Program-made: the position numbers and the translations under genes | Origin: Gadus chalcogrammus | Taxonomy: Eukaryota > Chordata > Actinopteri > Gadiformes > Gadidae | Reading direction: 5' to 3' | Assembly (NCBI RefSeq): GCF_026213295.1 | Contig: NC_079427.1 | Location: 29,758,102 to 29,822,101 of the forward strand | DNA: 64,000 nucleotides | Notes under the pieces: model-generated | Told to the model about the DNA's origin: nothing | Database searches by the model: none | What the model saw: the letters and a program-made list of their open reading frames with translations, nothing else | Part shown: piece by piece, positions 37,843 to 52,373 of the stretch | Layout of the letters: the number at the start of each line of letters is the position of its first letter | Numbering within the stretch: the stretch's first letter is position 1

Positions 37843-38184
37843 GTGCGCAGAAGCTCGCATACCGGCACCCATACACATACATTTTACATTTAGGGCATTT
37901 AGCAGACTCTTTTATCCAAAGCGACTTACATAAGTACATTTGTCATAAGAAGTGAAACAATATATAGCTGTGAGTACAGTAAAGATGTTGATAGAGCCAA
38001 GTGCAAGTACTAGCACTCGCTAGGCTAACCCATTCCCTGTGTACAGCAATGCTAGCAGTTACTGCAGATGTTACACAATTAAGTACTATGAATAAGTGCA
38101 CCATAGATTAAGTGCGTACAATAAGTGCGTACATTAAGTGCCAGGACGTACAACATACAATGGTGGCCGGAAGGGGCTGGGTAG

Positions 38185-38921
38185 CTATGTAGAGTCGAAG
38201 TGAACTCTGTAAAGGTGAGTTTTGAGTCTTTTGCAGAAGCTGGTGAGTGACTCTGCGATCCTGACATCGGCAGGGAGCTCGTTCCACCACTGAGGTCCAA
38301 AAACAGAGAAAAGTTGTGACTTTGTTGATCGACCTTTGCTTGCTCTTAGCGATGGCGGTACCAGACGTCCAGCTGAGGTAGTTGAGCGGAGGGATCGAGC
38401 ACGGGTGTGTGACTTTACCAATGGTTTGAGGTAGGCAGGGGCAGTTCCATCGACTGCCTTGTATGCCAGTATAATCATCTTAAATCTGATGCAAGCTACT
38501 ACAGGGAGCCAGTGGAGGTCCCGGAAGCGGGGGGTCACATGAGAGAACTTTGGTAGGTTGTACAAGAGGCGCGCTGCCGCATTCTGGACGCGCTGCAAAG
38601 GTTTAATCGCAGAGGCAGGGAGTCCAGCCAGGAGCGAGTTGCAGTAGTCGACGCGGGAGATGACCAGTGATTGGACTAGAGGCTGAGTTGCTTCCCTTGT
38701 GAGGAAAGTCCGGATCCTGCGGATGTTGTAAATTGCAAATCTGCAGGATCGGGTCACCGCAGTGATGTTTGCAGTGCAGCATAACTGATTGTCTAGTACC
38801 ACACCAAGGCTTCTGGCAGTTGGAGAAGGAGATACAGTGATGTTCTCAACAGTGACCAGTAAGTCCATGTTTGGGCAATCTTTCCCTGGCATTAGGAGGA
38901 GACATTCAGATATGCGTGTTG
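38185..38921 (-). pseudogene. L2 reverse transcriptase, C-terminal third
   Basis: Resumes after the hAT insertion with ISECLLLMPGKD, then ARSLGVVLDNQL and the thumb/C-terminal stretch SRVDYCNSLLAGLPASAIKP, LQRVQNAAARLL and FRDLHWLPV, all standard for L2/CR1 proteins. It ends at a natural stop near 38185 and is open throughout. Confidence 0.92.
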
Positions 38922-39167
38922 TAGTGATGCGCTGGTCGACCCGCGAACACCCGCGGGTTACCCGTGGGTCGGGCGGGTTTGGGTTTTGATATTTATAAAA
39001 TACTGTGGTCGCGGGCGGGTTTGGGTCAAAGTCTGAAATCACTAATTCTCCATCAATGACCACCAGGGGGCAGCGTTCCACCTGCTTAATCAAATTGTTT
39101 TTCCCTATATGGTATCCGTAGTTGTTTACACCGCCAAAACCTCTTGGAGATCTCAGATGAAGAAATG

Positions 39168-40113
39168 GCTAACTTGATTAGAGAAAAGTTAAAAAATGGC
39201 GATGCAAAGGTTGTGACGAAGGTGGGCCAAAAAAGCAAGGTTTGGGAAAAATTTGGAAGTGTCGTCTTGTCCGATGACACCGTTACAGACTACGTTGTCT
39301 GAGTGTGAGATGCTGTACAAATACGACGGGCATAAAACAGGTACATCAAACCTATTTCGGCATTCATGCCGTGGGTCGGCTCCACAGCCTAACAAGCCTT
39401 CCTCCACACAAGCTCATTCAGAACAACCCTTAATGCCTGCATTCATGAAAAACAAGGTTCCACTCACAGCAAAATCTAAACTTGTGGATGACTTTGTAGC
39501 ATTCTGCTGCTCGGACCTACTTCCGTTTGATGTTGTCTCTAGAAAGGGATTTACTCGTGTGGCACAAGGGCTTATAAATGTCGGTGCACGGTTTGGATCA
39601 GTAGACGTAGACTCTGTCCTCCCTCACCGACAAACAATTTGCGACAGGGCCAAAAAGCAGGCCAGGAAAGAAAAGGAGAGCCTAATCGAGCTGATTAAAA
39701 AGGCCATGAAAAATGGAATAGGAATCACAACAGACATGTGGACTGACAGATCGTACACAGTACTAACATGTCACTTTGTTACTGAAGATTGGAAACTTTT
39801 CAGTCGAGTGATTTCCACCTTAGAATTTGACCATGCGCTCAGAAAAACGTCCCCCGACATACAAGAACAGATTACCAAAGAACTTCTTGAAGTTGGCATT
39901 TCCCCTGACAACATGTCAAATGTTGTCTTTGTAAGTGACCAGGGCCCCAACATTAAGGCCGCACTCAAGAATTTGAATTGGACACCCTGCGCAGCGCACG
40001 TACTCAACACTGTTCTAAAGCACACATTCGAAGAAAGGGACGCACCAGATTGTATGGGCGAAGTGACTGACCAGATTATTCAGTGCAAGCATCTGGTTGC
40101 TTACCTTGCATAA
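39168..40113 (+). pseudogene. hAT transposase, N-terminal half
   Basis: From Met at 39168 the BED-type finger begins (KVWEKFGSVVLSDDTVTDYV); a one-base change near 39298 shifts the frame in the middle of the finger, which finishes as KYDGHKTGTSNLFRHSC. The catalytic domain follows: GIGITTDMWTD with the first Asp, then VFVSDQGPNIKAAL with the second, then WTPCAAHVLNTVL. It is cut at about 40113 by the LINE insertion and resumes at 44226. These motifs are of the Ac/Hermes-like hAT type. Confidence 0.9.
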
Positions 40114-40129
40114 AACACAAAACAAGCCA

Positions 40130-41239
40130 GTCCATATCCCAATGTATAAGAGTGATAGCGATTTATCTGAAGCATTGAACACTTTTTTTTCACGTTTTGA
40201 TATTCATGACTTTTCAGATGAACATAAGAAATTAACTGAGGAGCAAGCTCTGGTAAAGTCCACACCATTCTCAATTACACAAGAAGATGTTAGGTCAGTA
40301 TTTAAGAGAAATAAGGTCAATAAAAGTCCGGGTCCAGGTGGCATTACTGGGAGATTGTTAAAGTGCTGTTCAGAACAGCTCTGCGGGGTGTTCACTGATA
40401 TTTTTGAGATGTCCTTGGAACAGAGAAGGGTCCCAAAGGCATGGAAGGAGTCCATTATTGTTCCAGTGGCAAAGAGCAACACTACAGAGAGTTTAAATGA
40501 CTTCAGGCCAGTGGCATTGACCTCACTGGTCATGAAGTAATTTGAAAAGATTGTGAAGTGTCTTTTGTTGTTAAGGGTGGGTGAGGCCCTGGACCCAAGG
40601 CAATTTGCATACAGGGCTAGAAGAGGGGTGGAGGATGCCCAGATTACACTACTAAATCTCCTGTACAGCCATCTAGATGGTCCGGGCACACACGCCAGGC
40701 TGTTTTTAGATTTTTCTTCTGCTTTTAATACTATCCAGCCACATGTTTTAGTTAGTAAACTACTATCACAATTTAATCTTGAGAGTAATCTTGTGAGCTG
40801 GATTATGGATTTCTTAACTAACAGAACACAACGAGTAAAGGTAAATGGTTGTCTCTCGGAAAGGCGTGTCTCTTCCACTGGTTCTCCCCAGGGTTGTGTA
40901 CTTTCCCCTCTACTGTATATCCTCTACACTAATGACTGTAGAAGTCAGCATATAAATAGACACATCCTGAAATTTGCTGATGACACAGTTATTGTTAGTT
41001 TACTGCATAAGCATGAATCTCAGCATGGGCCAGTGGTTGATGAGTTTGTCAGTTGGTGTGACAAGTCTTTTCTTCAGCTTAACATCTCAAAGACAAAAAA
41101 TATGGCCATTGATTTTAGAAGAAACCAATCTTGTTCTCCATCACCTACATACATAAATGTAAACTGCATAGAGATGGTTGACCAGTATAAATATCTGGGA
41201 ACAATGATAGCCAATAAACTCAAATTTGACGTTAATACT
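40130..41239 (+). pseudogene. Rex1-like reverse transcriptase, N-terminal part
   Basis: NKSPGPGGITGRLLK and LNDFRPVALTSLVMK belong to the fingers; a TAA stop at 40538-40540 breaks the frame just before FEKIV. The palm follows: LFLDFSSAFNTIQPH (first Asp), GSPQGCVLSPLLY and KFADDTVIVSLL (catalytic Asp pair intact). The protein is cut after KLKFDVNT by the second LINE and resumes at 43614. Confidence 0.9.
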
Positions 41240-43601
41240 TCTTCTTCTTCTTTCGTGTAATTTCCTTTGGAACCATCACACAGGGATTGCTACATTCAGC
41301 AGCCAGTTCAGTGTCCCTCCGTCCAGCTGTACCAGGCCTCTATGGCCATGTGGGGCGCCAAAGGTCGGGCACTCGTTGATTATGTGTGAGACCGTCTGGG
41401 TAGCCCCACATTGGCAGGTGCCTGAGGGGCTTGATCCGGTCATTTTCTGGAAGGACTGGGTTCTCCCCCAGCCTGTTCGGAGGCGGTTGAGCCGAACCCA
41501 TTCTTTCCGCGGGAGTGTATGTCCAGGTGGTGTTGGTGAAGGGGTGGCGACGAAGGCGTGCAGGTTGGTGTTTGCGTCCTTCCATTCTTCTTGCCACCTC
41601 AAGTCCATCCATGTCTCAGAGACAGGGCCAGACCTTAAGAGATCCGCTGCTCTAGTGGCGAAGTGTTGCCTCGTGATCCTTTGGGGTGTGTTCTGCGGTG
41701 CTGGGATGATGTTATTTCCGCCAGGCTGGAGTGCCTTCTCCGCAAGCTTGAGGATCTGGAAGTCGCGCCTTACTTTTGGTGGATGGACTCCAGATAGTAC
41801 AGGTAGCATCTCTCTTGGAGTTGGTTTCATGGTGCCTGAGATGATGCGCATAGCTTCGTTGAGGACAACATCGACTGATTTGGTGTGGACACTGTGAGAC
41901 CAGGCTGCTGCGGCATACTCAGCAGTGGAATACAGCAGTGGAATAGAAGTGCGAGGACTGATGTGCGCAGTGTTTTAAAACTGGCTCCCCAGTCTAGGCC
42001 GCAGAGTTTCCTTATTAGGTTGACGCGCTTGGATGTTTTGTTTGCAGCGTTCTTCAGGTGAGGCCCAAAGGTTAAGCTGCGATCAAGGGTGACACCCAGA
42101 TAGACAGGTGCAGAGTCGAATCTTAACTTCTTGCCCTCCATTCTCACTTCTAGCTCCTTTTTGGCAAGTCGGTGGTACAGGTGGTAGACCGAACAGACAG
42201 TCTTTGACTCGCTTACTTTCAGGTGCCAGAGGCGGAAGTAGTTGCAGAGAGTAGAGATGTCAGCCTCTAGGATGCTCTGGATCTCCTCATATGTTTTGGC
42301 TTGGGCTGCAATTGCGCTGTCGTCCGCATAGAGGTACTTTAGTGAAGAGGTGGCGGGATAGTCCGCAGTGTAGATGTTAAAGAGAATGGGAGCAAGCACA
42401 GATCCCTGTGGTAAGCCATTTCGGAGCTGGAGATTTCTACTTTTTCTACTTCAAGCTCACCGCTTGAGGTCGTAACATAGAATGATCGGTTCTGGAGCAT
42501 AAGCATAATAAACTTCACAAGCTTCACGTCAGGGATCATTTGTAGTAGCTTAAAATAAAGACCACGGTGCCACACGGTGTCATAGGCAGCTGTGAGGTCG
42601 ATGTAGGCAACTCCAACCTTCGCTTTCTTCTGAAACGCTCCTTCTATGTCATTGACTAATCTGACTATTTGATCTGTCGTTGAACTTCCTTTGCGGAATC
42701 CTGCCTGGGCTTGTGGGAGGTTTGCCTCCACGATGTCATTGATACGCGCCAGGATTATTCTCTCCATCAACTTGTATGGTATACAGAGCAATGAGATTGG
42801 CCTGTAGCTCTTCGGATCTTCAGCAGATTTCTTGGGTTTGAGGATAGCAGCCACATGGGCCTTTCTCCAGATAGCAGGGATGGTTAGGGTTGACAGGCAG
42901 TTTGAGAGGAACAGGCGTAGCCTGTTAAGAGCATGGAACCCCAAGTGCTTGAGGAATTCTGTGTGGACCAAGTCTTTCCCAGGAGCTTTGCCGTTTTTCA
43001 GGCACATGATAGCGTCCATAAGTTGTTCTATGGTAACTGGTCCAGAGAGGTCAGATGAGGCATGTTGTGATGCAGTGGCTTCTCTTATTCCCCTATTAAC
43101 CTCTTAGGTGTGGCGCTTGGCATCGGCACTCTTGTCTCCCCATTTCCCATTTTCCACAAGCACTGTTGCGATAGAGTTTGCAGTTACGAGATATGGCTTG
43201 GGTTTGCTGCTTTGCCCTGAGAGGTGGTTGATTGTACTCCATGCCTTCCGGCTTGAGTGGGTAAAGTCGATTGATGTGACGGTTTCCTCCCAGCGTGCTT
43301 GCCTCTTTTCTCCAAGAATCTGCATGAGGTGGTCGCTTTTTGATTTTGGTTTCTCCTCGACACTAGCGGCGTTATAGGCTTGGAAGGCTGCCTCACACTC
43401 ACTGTCCCAGCAGGGGATATAGCTGTTACGTCTGCCCCGGGGAATGGAGGTCTTAGCGGCTGAGTTGAGCGTTGATGTAAAGGCCTTGTAGGTCTCAGAT
43501 GCTGGCCGCGAGGGGTCTGGGAGTTCGGAGGATAGCGAATCGACTACGGTAGTAAATTTGCTCCAATTGGTTTTGCGGAAGTTCCATCTCTTTTTCCCAA
43601 G
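41240..43601 (-). mobile_element. Jockey-group LINE inside the Rex1-like LINE
   Basis: GACGTTAATACT is duplicated exactly on both sides (41228-41239 and 43602-43613), a 12-bp target-primed duplication. On the minus strand the element runs from a truncated 5' end at 43601 to a 3' end of TTACACGAAAG followed by AGA triplets at 41240-41252. The host Rex1 reading frame is continuous across the insertion. Confidence 0.95.
41276..43600 (-). pseudogene. Jockey-group reverse transcriptase, frameshifted
   Basis: Four frames in order: 43600-43104 (linker, with RKAWSTINHLSGQSSKPKPY), 43019-42430 (fingers and palm: NGKAPGKDLVHTEFLK, YRPISLLCIPYKLMERII, AYIDLTAAYDTVWH with the first catalytic Asp), 42399-41870 (YLYADDSAIAAQ with the Asp pair, then YLGVTLDRSL), and 41851-41276 (C-terminal tail with CQCGATQTVSHIINEC, a Cys/His cluster). 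Breaks near 43020-43104, 42415 and 41860-41930. Clade within the Jockey superfamily is uncertain; the closest relative in this window is the LINE at 62576-64000. Confidence 0.87.
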
Positions 43602-44069
43602 GACGTTAATACTGATACTATTTGCAAGAAGGGGCAACAAAGATTGTACTTCCTTCGGAAGCTTAACTCCTTCAATGTCGATAAGGTTATGTTGTCTTTA
43701 TTTTATAAATCTTTTATAGAATCTGTTCTCACTTTTTCTTTTATTGCCTGGTATGGGGGCATCAGCCTTAGGGACAAAAACAACCTCAGCCATATTGTGA
43801 AGGTGGCTGGGAAGTTGATTGGCTGTCCACAAGTATCCTTGCTGAACATTTATGAGAAGCAGGTTACTAAGAAAGCATTGTCTATATTGGACTGTAAAAA
43901 TCACCCCCTTCATTGTTCATTTGAGGCCCTTCCCTCAGGCCGGAGACTAAGAGTCCCTCTTTCCAAGTCCAATAGGTCAAATAACTCTTTTATTCCTAGC
44001 GCAATTCGTTTGCTAAATTTGCACAATTCTTTGCACATACTTGTAAATGTATTTGAATCAGATGACTAG
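43602..44069 (+). pseudogene. Rex1-like reverse transcriptase, C-terminal part
   Basis: Continues with LYFLRKLNSFNVDKVMLSLF, FIESVLTFSFIAWYGG, ALPSGRRLRVPL and SFIPSAIRLLN to a stop at 44067-44069. No break in this part. Confidence 0.9.
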
Positions 44070-44225
44070 ATAAGTATGACAGTTTTTTAACTTATTAGCC
44101 CGTGTCTATCTCCTTGTTGTGTGTCCTTGTGTATATTGTGTTTTTATGTTTTTATGTGTACCTGACTGCAAGACAAGTTTCCCTTTTTGGGACAATAAAG
44201 TTAAACTGAACTGAACTGAACTGAA

Positions 44226-44697
44226 CAAGGTGGAATAGTAAGGAAGAGATGATGAACTCAATCGCGAGGCAACACAGTGAGTTTCGACGACTGCTTGAAG
44301 AAAAGGGTCAAGAACACCGCTTCGACGGCATACAGGTGGAGGTCCTCAATGCAGTTGGCGAATTCTTGACCCCCTTCAAACATGCCTCAGAGGATATGGA
44401 GGGAGACCAATATCCAACTATCAACACAGTTTTGTTGTGGTACCACAGGCTGCGACACTGTTAGTCTAGGTACAGCGACCCATTGTACATGCAACACATC
44501 CGCAGACGTGCCGGAGAGCTCTTGAGCGAGAACATGATCATCTCCCCTATCCATAAAATTGCCGCTTTCCTCTCCCCGCATTTTAAGACCCTAAAGATGC
44601 ACTCGCCAGATGAGAGCTTGGCAGTCCAAGTGGAAGCAAGGAGACAACAGCCCTCATTCCAAATCTGCAGGTTCAGTCTGCGCAAAGTACAAGTCAA
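44226..44697 (+). pseudogene. hAT transposase, middle part after the LINE
   Basis: WNSKEEMMNSIARQHSEFRR, LNAVGEFLTPFKHASEDMEG and TINTVLLWYHRLRH are typical of the hAT insertion domain. A TAG at 44462-44464 interrupts. Then MQHIRRRAGELLSENM and AAFLSPHFKTLKM lead to a splice-donor-like AAG/GTAAAT at 44700. Confidence 0.87.
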
Positions 44698-44789
44698 GGT
44701 AAATTGAAGCCTCAGTGTAGCTTCCAGTCATATTACCAAAATTAAATTGCCTATAAATTGGAGGATTTCTGTATATAATAATAATAATA

Positions 44790-45640
44790 ACTAGAACTGC
44801 AAGCAGTTATGCAGGGGTCCAAGAAGTGTGCATTTCGCCGGCACAACGCGACAAGAAATGTGCGTTTCGCCGGCACAACGCAAAGCATGTGTTTAAAACG
44901 CTACCCTGAACCTGTGGATACAAAGTATTTGACTGTGGTAGGAGTAGCGAGAAGTCAGTGTAGCGTTTTCGCGGCAAAATTTTGTAGAAGATATACAATT
45001 TCCTCGTTTATTGCGCCCCCTAATGGCGAAATGTTTATCGAACGACAGGAAGGTTAGCACCAACATTTGTGTAAAATTTGGACTCGATCCGATGTCTAAT
45101 TTTGGATTTATTTGGATTTTTGATATTCCACGTCTAATTTAGCAAATAAACCAATATTCAAAACGCTACTGTTTCGTCGTCGAAGGTCGGATCAAAAAAC
45201 TGTTAATGATTTCTTTGCGTGTGCGTCTGAAGATGTCGTGTGCAAAGTTTGGTGTCGATCGGTCAAGAAATGTGCGAGGAGTAGCGAAAAAACAGTTTTG
45301 CGGTTTTCGCGATTTAGCGAAAAATATTCATAGACGCAAATGGGCGTGGCCTAGGCCAAAAGATGCAGCAGACTCCCAGAGTCAGTTTTTGGACTCTGGG
45401 AGGTTCGGTGTGGGAGTTATAGCCCCAAACGCGTATTCCTTGGTATAGCGCCACCTAGGGACCGGCGTGTCTGGATTTTGTTATCTGAGTAGCGGTGCCG
45501 GACCTGGTTCTAGTCATGTAATTGGCGCGTGTGCACCATTTACGGTTTGGGCTGTGGTACCACTTCTAAGGCGTACGAAATAATAATAATAATAATCCTT
45601 ACAAAAACAATAGGGATCCAACCTGTTGGCTTGGACCCCT
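44790..45640. repeat. dispersed repeat with inverted GGGTCC/GGACCC ends, in a hAT intron
   Basis: Begins CTAGAACTGCAAGCAG with GGGGTCCAAG close by, and ends GGCTTGGACCCC. It is flanked by AATAATAATAAC-type DNA on both sides (44780-44791, 45640-45651), either a target duplication or pre-existing simple repeat. An internal block (GTGCGTTTCGCCGGCACAAC) is tandemly doubled at 44828-44880. No coding potential. Class unknown. Confidence 0.65.
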
Positions 45641-45671
45641 AATAATAATAACACCCCTTTCACATTTTAGC

Positions 45672-46198
45672 AGCGGACGGGACAAGTGCAACAGAGAGGG
45701 AAGAAGTAGAAGGTAGGCCCAACCTGCAAGATGACAGCCACAAAAGGCTGTGAATTATGTGAACTGTTTCACACAGTTTTAATTGCAAACCTTGACTGCA
45801 TGTTTATAGCCTACTTGACTTTATTTAAATTCAGACGTGCCTTGTTCTTTTTGACAGAAAATCTACTGAAAAAGCACAGAATGTTCCAGGAATGGGAAGT
45901 CACTCCAGACCTTATTGAGGCGGATGAAATACAGCGCTATATGCTGTCACATTTGAGTCTTGAGGACTGCACAGAAGACGTCCTTGGATTTTGGAGGGAT
46001 CACTGTCACTATTTCCCTCTCCTCTCGATGTTGGCAAGAGCGGTGCTTTGCGTTCCTGCAACCAGCGCATCAAGCAAGCGCGCTTTCAGTTCAGCAGGTC
46101 GCGTGCTGGAAGCGTGTTGCAATAGGCTAAACCCCGGCACCGTGGATGCCATCCTCTTTATCCACACTGCTTCCAAACAGCGGTCATGTGTACAGTAG
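45672..46198 (+). pseudogene. hAT transposase C-terminal exons with dimerisation domain
   Basis: A small exon (45672-45712) follows an acceptor-like TTTTAG. A longer exon starts after TTTTGACAG at 45857 and reads TPDLIEADEIQRYMLSHLSL, FWRDHCHYFPLLSMLARAVL, VPATSASSKRAFSSAGRVL. This is the hAT C-terminal dimerisation domain, including the conserved W and the SSA.SER-like motif (here ASSKRAFSSAG). It is open to a stop at 46196. Confidence 0.9.
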
Positions 46199-47225
46199 CC
46201 CTTAGTTCAATTTTGAGTTTTAAATTTGTAGCATTCACACCGCAATACCTAATTGTTTTAGTTCCCTCTATTGTGTGTCAGTTAAGGTTTTTGCAGACAT
46301 AGGTTCATTGTTATTATTGTTATTATAAAGCTGCGGCTAATCAGCTCTGAATTATCTGTAAATTAAAACTTCCTTTCAGTTTTTGATTGACAACTGATCT
46401 CATCTCATTTTGTTTAAGTGTGTTTCATGATTTTCTCTTTATTTCATATAAATCCGTATACCGTAGGCCTATTGGTCCGAATATAAACACAAACCCCATT
46501 GTAAGATGACCTATATTTGGAAAAAAGATTTGAACACCAGATCTTGTTTTTATAAATAAATAAATTGTATTTATTGAAATAATGTACGAAAATAAAAAGG
46601 CATAGAATATAACACTGCATTGCCACTAAACAGTAGTGCAAATAGGCCGAACTGATGTGTCCACCAAAGGCTTTTCCTCACACTCCTCTGCCCCGCTGTG
46701 TTCGCTCTGGCTGTGGTCGGTCCGCACTGTTTCGGCCCGTGGCAAAGCAAGTCATCCTCGCTGCTGTCCAAGGCATTTTGAGACGCAGCATTTATTTAAT
46801 GCTCATATGACCTAGTGCTGAAATAAAAAATTATCTGAAAAAGTGTGAGGGGGAGCGGTGGTGCGCTAAACTTGTTCTGTGAGCAGCTGGATGTGAACAA
46901 TGGTAGATTTTCGACTGTGCGCGCATGTACAATATTGCATTGGTGTAATCGAGCTGCGCTGCTATATTTTTTTTTTATCAATGTAGCGAGTTGCGAGTCA
47001 AGTGCAGGACAAGCTTTTTTTTTCCAGCACCCCCTGCTGAGAATACGTTCCCGCGGCTATGGTTCCATTGCAATATGGACTCACTGCCTTTTTTTTTTTT
47101 TCTCGGGTTGGGTCGGGTTTGGATCATTATCGGCGCATATTTTTGCGGGCTGGGCGGGGCGGTTCAGATCTCCTAACGGGTTGGGATGGGGCGGGTGTTA
47201 AAAAAACCTGACCCGCGCATCGCTA
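46199..47225. other. 3' non-coding end of the hAT element
   Basis: AT-rich DNA, then G-rich subterminal repeats and the right terminal inverted repeat. AACAGTAGTGCAA at 46630 region also occurs at 31879 in the other hAT element, hinting at kinship. No gene. Confidence 0.6.
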
Positions 47226-47525
47226 GCGTGTTGCTATCAGGGCTTTGTCAGATGAGGGGAAAGAGAGAAATAGCTCAGTGTCGTCAGGATAGCAGTGATA
47301 GGAAAAAACATGTGATGTAATTACAGAGCCCAGGGATCTGGTATAGAGGGTGAACAGAGGAGGCCCCAGTACCGAGCCTTGAGGGACACCAGTTTCGAGC
47401 GCGCAAGGTTTGGACAAGGAGCCATTCCATGTTACCTGATAAATGTGATTCGTCACGTAGGATGTGAACCAGGAAAGAGCAGATTCAGCAATGCCAAGTT
47501 CAGCGAGAGTGGCAAGGAGGATCTG
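47226..47525 (-). pseudogene. L2 reverse transcriptase, central segment
   Basis: Between the two insertions: LLATLAELGIAESALSWFTS, GVPQGSVLGPPLF and the catalytic box CYPDDTELFLSFP (YPDD where YADD is usual). The left boundary joins 38921 across the hAT and the right boundary joins 48860 across the Harbinger element. Confidence 0.93.
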
Positions 47526-48859
47526 GGGTCTCATTTATAAAACTGTCCGTGGGATCGTTACTAAAAATGTGCGTACGCCCAGAAGCCAAGTTTTGCGTGC
47601 GCCAAAAAATATCTGGATTTATAAAACACTGCGTACGCACACCTGTACGCAATCTTTGATTTATAAATCACATACTGACTACAATTGTGCGCAGCTGAAT
47701 CAGCTTCACGTTCCGCCCTCTACACCCCCCTTTTTAACCATAAATGGTCAATGCAAATGACCTCATGAATGCGATCTGCATATAAAACAGACTCAGATGC
47801 CGGTATTATGTCTTGTTGGAAACAATGGCAGAAGTACTGAGAAAATCAAAAAAGCGAAATTTCACGGAGGTTGAAGTGAAGACACTTGTGGGTGAGATGG
47901 AGGCCCGAAAGGTAGTTTTGTTCGGCGGTCACGGGATTGGAATCGCCAACAACAAAAAGCAGAGTGAGTGGCAACATGTTGCTGCAGCAGTGAACTCTGT
48001 CAGTAGCACAGTCCCAGAATTAAAAAAGAAGTGGTCTGACATAGAGTTACATATTTTTATGTAGCCTACCAATAAATCGTTATGGTCCCTAAATACCCTC
48101 TCCCTCCGAATCCTGCATGGTCCGCCAGAAGTGCCATATGGTGCAGCATTACCACGGCGCTCACCTCTGTATTTATAGGGTTACGGTAATAATACTGACG
48201 AGAACGCCTTGGATAATCAGTTTGTAATTACCCACGTAAAATGTTCTTGAACATAACCCCTTTTTAATGCCTGATTTGTCATGAAAAGCATCAAGAGTAA
48301 CGGACAACGATTGTGATGAGTGTGGCTTGGTTTTTCACACTTGGGATTTAATTGACATTTGATCATGTGTTTACAGTGTCACATAAAAATATTATATTAT
48401 TGACATATGTTGGACAGATGCTTTATTCCATGCAGTCGCGCCGTCAGTGGACAGTATGGAGTGACGGGATTAAATATAGAGAATTTCTTTTTATTTCTAT
48501 TCTAAGGAGATATTTCTGGAGTTATAACTGAGAAATAACGCAGTGGACTTAAATGATTCTGATTAGGATTTAACGCATGATACGGGTTGAAATTAAATTG
48601 ATGAAGGGCGATGATAAAACTTAATCGTTCTTCTCACTCTGCAATTCTTCGGTCTGACTTCAGTTCACCACCACACCGTCTGTGTCGCCAATTCTCCTTT
48701 TCCTCCAAACCATGCGTACGCATGGGTCAGAGTTTGCTTAGGGCTGCGCACATTTTCCCGTCAAGTTGGTTTTTTATAGATCACAACCTTGGCGTGAAAA
48801 GTCACGTACGCAACTTTCAGCCCCGTTTTGTGCGTACGCAACGGTTATAAATGAGACCC
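47526..48859. mobile_element. PIF/Harbinger element inside the L2 LINE
   Basis: Ends GGGTCTCATTTATAA and TTATAAATGAGACCC are exact inverted copies. CTG is duplicated (47523-47525 and 48860-48862), a 3-bp duplication. The LINE reading frame has this CAG (minus strand) once, at the join. Subterminal DNA has many GCGTACGC motifs. It carries a Myb-like gene but no recognisable transposase. Confidence 0.93.
47813..48064 (+). pseudogene. Harbinger Myb/SANT-like DNA-binding protein, N-terminal domain
   Basis: Met at 47825 (MAEVLRKS). KKRNFTEVEVKTLVGEMEAR, then WQHVAAAVNSV and ELKKKWSDIE form a trihelical Myb-like domain of the NAIF1-like kind. In two-gene Harbinger elements this protein binds the ends and brings the transposase into the nucleus. 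It stops at about residue 80, directly after the domain, so the protein is truncated or the next exon is lost. Confidence 0.8.
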
Positions 48860-49905
48860 CTGGTGGTTTACCATGTCAAATGCTGCAGCCAGGTCGAGGA
48901 GAATGGGAACCGATTTGAGGGACGAGGCTCTGGCAGCACGGAGGGACTCAGTCACCGCAAGGAGAGCCGTCTCAGTGGAGTGTGCCTTCTTGAAGCCTGA
49001 CTGGTGAGGGTCAAGGAGGTTGTTAGATGAGAGATAGGAGGACAGTTGGTTAGCGATGGCACGTTCCAGTGTTTTAGAGAGGAATGAAAGAAGAGATACC
49101 GGTCTTAAGTTCAGGATGTCGGTGGTATCAAGGGTCGTTTTTTTGAGGAGAGGCTTTATTCTGGCAGTCTTAAAAGAAGCTGGAACAATGCCTGAAGTGA
49201 GGGAGGATTTGAAAAGTGCGGTGAGAAATGGCAGGATGTCGATTGAGACAGCCTGGAGGAGAGAGGAAGGGATAGTGTCAAGGGGGCCAGTGGTGGCATG
49301 GTTAGATGTTATTATTCTGTTGACCTCGTCGGAGGTGAGAGCGATAAATTGGGTAAAGACAGAGGTGGGGATGGGAGGAGGGAGAATGGAGGCAGGGGTA
49401 AAAGAGGAGCTAATGTCCCTTACTTTCTGGGTAAAGTAGGTAACAAAGTCATCAGCAGTGAGGCAGGAAGGAGGTGGACGGGAGGGAGGTCTGATGAGGG
49501 AAGAGAACAAGGAAAACAGTTTCCTGGGGTTTGAGGCGGAGTAGTTGATTTTGGTGTGGTAGAAGGCAGTTTTTGCTGTTGACATAGTGGAGGTGAAATC
49601 AGAGAGAAGGAAAAGATAGTGAGATAGATCATTAGGACAGTCTGATCTCTTCCATTTCCTCTCAGCTGCCCGCAACTCGGCTCTATAAATCCGCAGAGAT
49701 TGGACAGCCAAGGAGGGGGCATGAGGATCGCGCAGGTCTGGAGTGGAAGGGACGGAGGGAGTCCAAAGAGGAGGAGAGGGAGGATAGCAGAGTGTCTGAG
49801 GATTCCTCAGTGGATAGTTGAGAGAATCGTTCGACAGAAGGTAGTGAAGACAGAACAGTTGAGGCAAATGTAGAGAGAGGTAGAGAGAGAGAGAGAGAGA
49901 GAGAG

Positions 49906-49986
<81 letters not shown>

Positions 49987-49990
49987 AAGT
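48860..49990 (-). pseudogene. L2 linker and N-terminal reverse transcriptase
   Basis: Reads AELRAAERKWKRSDCPNDLS, later DTIPSSLLQAVSIDIL, LNLRPVSLLSFLSKTLERAI and LLDLAAAFDMVNHQ (first catalytic Asp), where the Harbinger insertion cuts it. Near its N-terminal end an expanded GA repeat is translated in frame as alternating Leu-Ser. One open frame of more than 300 codons remains. Confidence 0.9.
49874..49981. repeat. (GA)n microsatellite inside the LINE coding region
   Basis: About 50 GA units, broken by two GGTAGA interruptions at the left. On the coding strand of the LINE it becomes (TC)n, encoding Leu-Ser repeats without changing frame. Confidence 0.95.
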
Positions 49991-50016
49991 TACGGTGGGT
50001 GGTGACAATGTGGGGA

Positions 50017-50580
50017 CTAGAGAGAGGACTTCAAGGGGAGAGAAAAAGCAACAAAGTGATGGTCAGCCACGGGGAGCGAGGTAACAGAGAGAGCAGAGGT
50101 GCCGCAGGACCTTGTGAATATCAGGTCAAGTTGGTTCCCGGCCCTGTGTGTGGGGGGAGAAGGGGAGAGTGTTAAGTCAAAGGTGGCAAAAAAGTTGGTC
50201 AATTCAGGTGAGTGCAACTTCTCTGGCAGGATGTTGAAGTCGCCAAGGATAACGAGTGGTGTGCCATTTTCAGGAAAGCAGCTGAGAAGGGCATCCATCT
50301 CGTCGTAGAAGTCACGAAGGGGACCTGGAGGACGATAGATCACCACAATGGAGTGCTTGATAGGAAGGTTGACAGTGACAGCATGGAGTTCAAAAGCAGA
50401 TCTGGCCAAGTGTTCTAGGGGAAGGACCTGGTAGGACCACATCGGCGAGATGAGGAGTCCGGTCCCTCCTCCTCGCCCTTATGATCTTGGGGTGTGTGAG
50501 AATGAGTATCAGAGTTCTCTGGAGTGATCCAAGTCTCTGTCAGGGCCAGGAAGTGGAGGGTCATGAGGGAGGGTTACGCA
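50017..50580 (-). pseudogene. L2 apurinic-type endonuclease domain
   Basis: HSIVVIYRPPGPL, VILGDFNILPEKL and SLPVADHHFVAF are the conserved blocks of LINE endonucleases (substrate-contact, Asp/Asn and His motifs; the usual SDH is ADHH here). The upstream part (50580-50442) is in another frame. 50882-50574 carries the start of the second ORF, with LWNCQSAVKKADSISAYA. Confidence 0.88.
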
Positions 50581-51360
50581 TAGGCCGAAATGGAGTCTGC
50601 CTTCTTGACCGCTGATTGGCAGTTCCAGAGTCTTCCCATCACTTCAAGGTCAGTGTAGGCAAGGGTCGGTGGATGGCACAGATTGGATGGGTTGCTGCGC
50701 CGAGCAGAGGATCTATGGTGGCGTCGTCTATGAGTGGAAGTCCTGACGATGAGTGAAGTACGACACATAGCTACAATCAGGGTGGCTTCCCTGGTCTTCC
50801 TCGAGGGACTCCCACAGAGAGACTCCCGTAGTCTTTGTTTCCCGGGTCTTCGTTTGCAGGGTCCTGATGCTACAGCTGACACTAATAATAGCTAGCCTTT
50901 AAATGCACAAGGTAGCTCAGGCAGCCGTAGCTCCGCCCACAAATTCAATTTTATTTGTATAGCCCTTAATCACCATTACAGTCTCAAAGGGCTTAACAGG
51001 CCAAATATTTATGACACCCCCCTTTACCCAAGCCCCCACAAGGGCAAGAGAAAAACTCCCTTGAAATTAGCAAGGAACAAATCTTGAGAAGAAATGCATA
51101 GTAGGGGATCCCTTCTTCCAGGGATGGTCCGAAGTGCATTGGGTGCCATAATTGACATACAGGTAAATACATGCACATCATATTAAATTGGTGATGTGGT
51201 GCTGGCCGGTTAACCATAAGGAAAGTCCAGGCATCCAGTCCAGTCACCAAAACACGCTGGAACAAACATAATAGTGAATTAGAACGGAAAAAGTACATAG
51301 TGGGAATGTATACTGTATTAACAAAAGCACAAATAAGGAAGGGGGCTCGATAGGCAAACG

Positions 51361-52263
51361 CTCTCAGTCCAGCCGATTTCTTTTGAACCTTCGGCAGTGA
51401 AAGAAGGCCAGCTCCCGAAGACCGGAGGGACCGAGAAGGACTATAAGGAATGATCAGGTCCTTCAGGTAGAATGGAGATAATCCATGCAAGGCTTTATAG
51501 GTTAGCAGTAGCACCTTAAAGTCTGATCTGAAAGTTATTTGTAGCTAGTGCAAAGAGGCGAGAATAGGTGTGATATGATCAAACCTTCTCGTTCTGGTCA
51601 GCAGGCTAGCTGCAGCATTCTGTACAAGCTGTAGACTTTTCGTGGTCCCAAGAACAGTGCATTGCAATAATCCAGTCTTGATGAAACAAATGCATGAATC
51701 AGAGTCTCCGCATCCGCTGCCGATATTGGTCTGATTCTTGCAATGTTTCTCAGATGGAAAAAGGCAATTCTAGTTATACTTCCAACATGTTGGTCAAAGC
51801 CCAGTTGAGGGTCGAACAGGACACCAAGATTTTTGACAAATGCACTCTGTGGGATGGCAAGGCCATCCAACCACAGTGAGACAGCCTCAAACTCTCTCCG
51901 GTCCCGCTTTGAGACGATAATTATCAGCTCTGTCTTCCCAGTGTTTAGCTGTAGGAAGTTTTGTGACATCCAGCTCTTCACCGCAGCCAGACAGGACTCA
52001 ACCCTCTGGATCAGGGCAGAGTCCCATGAATCTACAGGAATGAAGAGCTGGGTGTCATCCTCGTAGCAGTGGAAACTAATTCCGAAGCTGCAGATAACGT
52101 CGCCCAAGGGAAGCATGTAGATTGCAAAAAGTAATGGACCAAGGACCGACCCTTGTGGTACGCCAAAGCGTAGTTTGCAGTGCTTTGATTCTGAACCCTC
52201 ATGGAGCACAAATCTGTGACGCACGATTCAAGCCAACCAAGAGCCGTACCCCCGAAACCAACA
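51361..52263 (-). pseudogene. Maui-like reverse transcriptase, C-terminal half
   Basis: LGWLESCVTD, FGVPQGSVLGPLLFAIYMLP and CYEDDTQLFIPV (YEDD catalytic box), then FLQLNTGKTELIII, VKNLGVLFDPQLGFDQHV and SSRLDYCNALFLG. 51514-51361 gives LLLTYKALHGLSPFYLKDLI, close to the C-terminus. The frame breaks near 51590 and 52224. Confidence 0.9.
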
Positions 52264-52373
52264 TACACCGCGTTCCAAATTATTATGCAAATGACATTTC
52301 TCTGATTTTCCTAAATAGTCAATGAGAATGACTGTCAGTATAATTTTCAAGTCATCAACCGTTTAAGTTTAAT

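Follow-up and report, generated by a model that had tools for sequence, protein, structure and literature searches.

An L2 LINE, a Hermes-like hAT transposon, a Rex1-like LINE and a Jockey-group LINE nested in one another in Gadus chalcogrammus, with insertion-free copies of each host element

We analyzed a window of 64,000 nt of Gadus chalcogrammus DNA (assembly GCF_026213295.1, contig NC_079427.1, forward-strand positions 29,758,102–29,822,101; coordinates below are those of the window), in which an L2-type long interspersed nuclear element (LINE) holds a Hermes-like hAT transposon, the hAT holds a Rex1-like LINE and this in turn holds a Jockey-group LINE, with two side insertions, a Harbinger-type element in the L2 and a further repeat in the hAT. 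We put the probability of this arrangement at about 95%, and six insertion events make up the stack. The four-level nest and the order L2, hAT, Rex1, Jockey-group LINE had been proposed in the initial annotation and are confirmed because this genome also contains, for every host element, copies free of the insert: all 12 L2 copies compared are unbroken at both the hAT and the Harbinger sites, the sole hAT copy covering the Rex1 site (on contig C21) reads through it, and all ten fetched Rex1 copies long enough to include the Jockey-group site show no gap where the join lies. The exact target duplications reported in the same annotation for the hAT, the Jockey-group LINE and the Harbinger element also stand where they had been placed, abutting the element ends.

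As to the chemistry of each insertion, we infer the following course. The L2-type LINE arrived first, and the Hermes-like hAT would have been pasted into it through an 8-base staggered cut. Target-primed reverse transcription would then have placed a 5′-truncated copy of the Rex1-like LINE in the transposase gene of the hAT, at the cost of 52 target bases and with none duplicated. Later a Jockey-group LINE, running the opposite way, would have been copied into the reverse transcriptase gene of Rex1, where 12 bases were duplicated. To the sides of this succession, a Harbinger-type element entered the L2 with a 3-base duplication, and another repeat the hAT. The Harbinger element is younger than the L2 and the other repeat younger than the hAT, with no ranking of either against Rex1 or the Jockey-group LINE.

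The outermost host lies on the minus strand at 37877–50838 and contains RVT_1 and Exo_endo_phos domains as well as a UnaL2-type 3′ stem-loop (37889–37942, minus strand; Rfam RF00436, 59 bits, above the gathering score), as expected of an L2 element. Its paralogues align from 37872–37887, at the 3′ end, up to 50838, and homology is demonstrated for 37877–50838 only, not up to 50940 as had been annotated. Fetched 5′ flanks, two of three without a match, did not fix the true 5′ end, and a search for an L2 target duplication returned nothing better than a 5-base match. The 5′ end of the L2 is adjoined by remains of another LINE reverse transcriptase (50993–52310, minus strand, with RVT_1 in 51598–52227).

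Using as query the 292-base L2 piece between the hAT and Harbinger sites, we obtained 40 scored places out of 247 candidates; two of them are the window and a second copy of the stack, described below, and 12 of the other 38 (L059–L070) were fetched and compared. Because all 12 align straight across both sites, the hAT and the Harbinger element are insertions into the L2. The hAT is flanked on the plus strand by GCGTGTTG at 38914–38921 and 47226–47233, each copy abutting an element end, and this octamer is present once in the L2 paralogues, exactly in nine and in altered form in three (L061, L062 and L064). Since it recurs in the window, seven times on the plus strand and twice on the minus strand, it counts through its position and the paralogues and not through rarity. 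The Harbinger element is flanked in the same manner by CTG at 47523–47525 and 48860–48862 (plus strand), which by itself is no proof of insertion; CTG is single at this site in all 12 paralogues, although in one of them (L064) 8 bases are missing slightly to the right of it. About 13 bases to the left of the left hAT duplication, at 38900/38901, the window L2 lacks 62–63 bases that the 12 paralogues keep. This loss, with two shared bases at the break, is common to the window and the second stack copy, and may be earlier or later than the hAT.

The hAT element (38922–47225, plus strand) is broken by Rex1 and by the further repeat. Its assignment to the hAT superfamily follows from the 8-base target duplication, the terminal inverted repeats (14 of the first 16 bases agree) and a hAT dimerisation domain (PF05699), and it also contains a Hermes-type DNA-binding domain (PF10683). 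It resembles the Hermes transposase (structures 8edg, 6dww, 4d1q and 2bw3) by sequence match in the N-terminal part and the dimerisation region, and differs from it in that Rex1 and the loss of 52 bases have disrupted the gene in the window. The left half of the hAT had four matches in the genome (the window, the second copy and two pieces on C21), and so had the right half (the window, the second copy, C21 and a piece on contig C8). By DNA similarity the element looks very rare: outside the duplicated stack, the two hAT queries matched only C21:18523740–18531167 and C8:23564669 onward. The DNA on either side of the C21 copy gave nothing beyond one 30-base non-coding match.

The Rex1-like LINE occupies 40106–44225 on the plus strand, interrupted by the Jockey-group LINE. 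Alignment to Rex1 copies and to the C21 hAT copy places its left edge at 40106 or 40108, depending on two shared bases (TT) at the 5′ join, and its right edge at 44223–44226 through shared bases, so that the limits given previously (40114–44222) are corrected to 40106/40108–44225. A genome search with Rex1 gave 42 matches, 20 of which were fetched; 18 of these (L011–L028) are neither the window nor the second copy, and some are neighboring pieces of one element. Since other copies (L011, L012, L015 and L016) run further upstream of 40106, with one common sequence, the Rex1 in the window is 5′-truncated. On the right it finishes in repeated CTGAA units, as do the seven other Rex1 copies inspected. 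The element encodes a reverse transcriptase domain (RVT_1, 1.9e-24), as a Rex1/Babar LINE should, and the provisional name Rex1-like follows the initial annotation. The reverse transcriptase showed weak matches only to solved structures, and in NCBIfam the two LINEs that matched anything matched distant reverse transcriptase models only. At two of the 18 other loci, Rex1 has within 500 bases of it a relative of the Harbinger element in the window (L012:101–1072 and L024:138–1452).

At the site of Rex1 the C21 hAT copy is continuous and carries 52 bases that are absent from the window. The Hermes alignment ends just before this site; Hermes presumably has about 19 residues at this point before its next conserved block, which fits the 52 bases being ancestral. 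A target duplication was sought, and the longest shared string, AACAAG (6 bases), is not at both ends, so none is claimed. The 52 bases were probably lost during the insertion of Rex1 and not later. They might instead have gone in a deletion of their own, preceding or following the arrival of Rex1; we regard this as the unlikelier course, although a single paralogue covers the site and the other small deletion in the L2 indicates that unrelated deletions do occur in this region, because the loss falls exactly at the ends of Rex1 and two bases are shared at the 5′ join, as expected with upstream cleavage of the second strand (PMC2881922). According to that source, target-primed reverse transcription can remove target bases if the second strand is cut upstream. 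The LINE target-site deletions treated there share with our case the lack of a duplication, the missing target bases and a short shared sequence at the 5′ join, whereas ours is a single case, in a Rex1-like element, seen against one paralogue.

The Jockey-group LINE (41240–43601, minus strand) is flanked by GACGTTAATACT at 41228–41239 and 43602–43613 (plus strand), abutting the element ends and found at only these two places in the window. Ten of the 18 Rex1 loci reach this site, as do four more matches that were not fetched, and in all ten the 12-base target is present once, exactly in six (L011, L012, L013, L018, L019 and L020, of which L019 has 33 extra bases that begin near the join, three bases beyond the target) and with one or two bases altered in four (L014, L025, L027 and L028). 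In L011, L012, L018, L020 and L027 the overlap between the Rex1 matches on either side is exactly 12 bases, and L013 and L025 fit the same overlap after allowing for 6 and 1 bases, respectively, of alignment edge. On each side the 12 bases are translated in frame as DVNT, and the open frame continues through them. The interrupted frames had been put forward as independent confirmation of each join. The Rex1 join is not continuous, for want of the 52 hAT bases.

A genome search with the Jockey-group LINE gave 28 matches, including the window and the second copy, several being pieces of one element. The six other fetched copies (L003–L008) all end in the same GAA-type tail as the (GAA)n-type tail in the window. 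Since L003 and L007 run past the 5′ end of the window element, with common sequence, the latter is 5′-truncated; the other four stop at different points, and L005 seems interrupted rather than truncated, its next piece being 8 kb away. RVT_1 is found in two frames of the element, as a Jockey-group LINE should have, and the label is otherwise provisional. The named entries among its 120 best listed homologs are reverse transcriptase proteins of fishes, with no clade assigned; like the element families, they point to a fish genome.

The same copies bear on whether part of the stack could have arrived ready-made, Rex1 having come in with the hAT, or the Jockey-group LINE with Rex1. A hAT, as a cut-and-paste element, could in principle bring cargo, and the whole stack does have a second copy. 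This copy, however, includes the surrounding DNA, as a regional copy would and a copy of a single element would not; moreover, the Jockey-group LINE is absent from all 18 other fetched Rex1 loci, Rex1 is found at this site in no other hAT place, and the Jockey-group duplication falls inside Rex1. We consider a composite arrival very improbable, and successive insertion remains our reading of the nest.

Divergence agrees roughly with the order L2, hAT, Rex1. For the L2 in the window, 106 of 2642 sites (4.0%) depart from the majority of the 12 paralogues, which were picked by similarity and are themselves 3.3–5.3% from it. Rex1 and the Jockey-group LINE differ from the majority of their fetched copies at 22 of 1735 (1.27%) and 30 of 2247 sites (1.34%), respectively, and for the hAT we took half of one pairwise comparison with the C21 copy (55 of 1329 sites, 4.26% corrected), or about 2.1% per lineage. 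The divergence of L2 exceeds that of Rex1 (Fisher p = 4e-8), whereas no difference is seen between Rex1 and the Jockey-group LINE (p = 0.89). The figures were measured in ways unlike each other and allow only a rough ranking of ages; the Fisher tests assume independent sites. The two other Harbinger copies compared, at 4.5% and 7.3%, give no age rank.

Three points weigh against the proposed history. The evidence at the Rex1 site comes from one hAT paralogue. Two joins are not seamless: the hAT is short of 52 bases where Rex1 went in, and the L2 lacks its 62–63 bases beside the hAT join. Finally, divergence, which had also been proposed as a check, lends nothing to Rex1 being older than the Jockey-group LINE, and because it is silent there this last step rests on the anatomy of the insertion. 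Neither deletion, nor the insertion at 44790–45639, had been listed before.

This latter insertion, a further repeat within the hAT (limits within a few bases), is recognized from the C8 hAT copy (L077), which passes straight from 44789 to 45640 and on to 47077, with 93–95% identity, without the 850 bases between. The repeat sits in a stretch of TAA repeats between coding parts of the hAT, probably an intron, and has a relative in L023 (86% over 397 columns).

The Harbinger-type element (47526–48859, plus strand) has inverted ends, with the first 15 bases identical, and a Myb/SANT frame at 47786–48064 (PF13873, 1.5e-12), which together with the 3-base target duplication correspond to a PIF/Harbinger transposon. 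Because frames of at least 80 amino acids gave no match to the DDE transposase of autonomous PIF/Harbinger elements, it is probably non-autonomous. It shares the 3-base duplication, the inverted ends and the Myb-like protein with teleost Harbinger transposons as presented in PMC9179366, and differs from them in having 15 identical end bases against the 25–50 quoted there and in the transposase not being seen here.

A second copy of the stack lies 161 kb upstream within one and the same contig (C16, 36.8 Mb, in a genome of 630 Mb), with 35 substitutions in 17,947 compared sites (0.2%) and six internal indels of at least 3 bases (range 8–56). Of eight junction strings tested, seven are identical in this copy, and the right hAT end has one mismatch in 30 bases. 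Out of ten probes taken at a fixed offset, seven are colinear with the window and in the same orientation (L033 over 496 of 600 bases, L034 at 95%), two match only in reverse, at 85–87%, and one does not match. Of ten probes from outside, one matches the start of the window and nine match nothing in it, and no outside pair match each other. The duplicated stretch covers at least window positions 1399–59278, with shifts of several kilobases, and the counterpart of about that interval is C16:29588929–29661030, 156–168 kb upstream. It is either a recent segmental duplication or an assembly artifact. In the latter case two haplotypes would have been kept side by side, as the 0.2% of substitutions and the several-kilobase shifts between probes would suggest, whereas the location of both copies inside one 36.8 Mb contig speaks for a true duplication; we give the two explanations even odds. 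The question concerns the surroundings and not the nest itself.

Jockey, Rex1, hAT, L2 and Harbinger are all listed for ray-finned fishes in PMC7599744, which also describes Rex1-derived sequence within the medaka P element Izanagi. Both cases involve a Rex1 LINE within a fish DNA transposon, although the host here is a Hermes-like hAT and no regulatory role is known for it. Nesting is already established as a relative clock, by TinT (PMC3014933) and by interruption analysis (PMC2517846); there, younger elements likewise break older ones and so give the order, from a genome-wide frequency matrix and not, as here, from one locus with mixed LINE and DNA elements. The listings of keyword searches of the literature did not contain this particular stack, which is weak evidence of its being unpublished. 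The phenomenon is an ordinary one, with textbook mechanisms, that is well documented at this locus. Speculatively, and with very little probability, the locus might trap and tolerate successive transposons, for instance as a cluster producing PIWI-interacting RNAs, and have then been copied by segmental duplication.

Given so similar a second copy, numbers of copies counted in this assembly may be too high. The Rex1 join illustrates in detail how a LINE, in inserting, probably deleted part of its target, and the stack as a whole lets four transposon families be placed in relative order at a single locus, every insertion having its empty site elsewhere in the genome.

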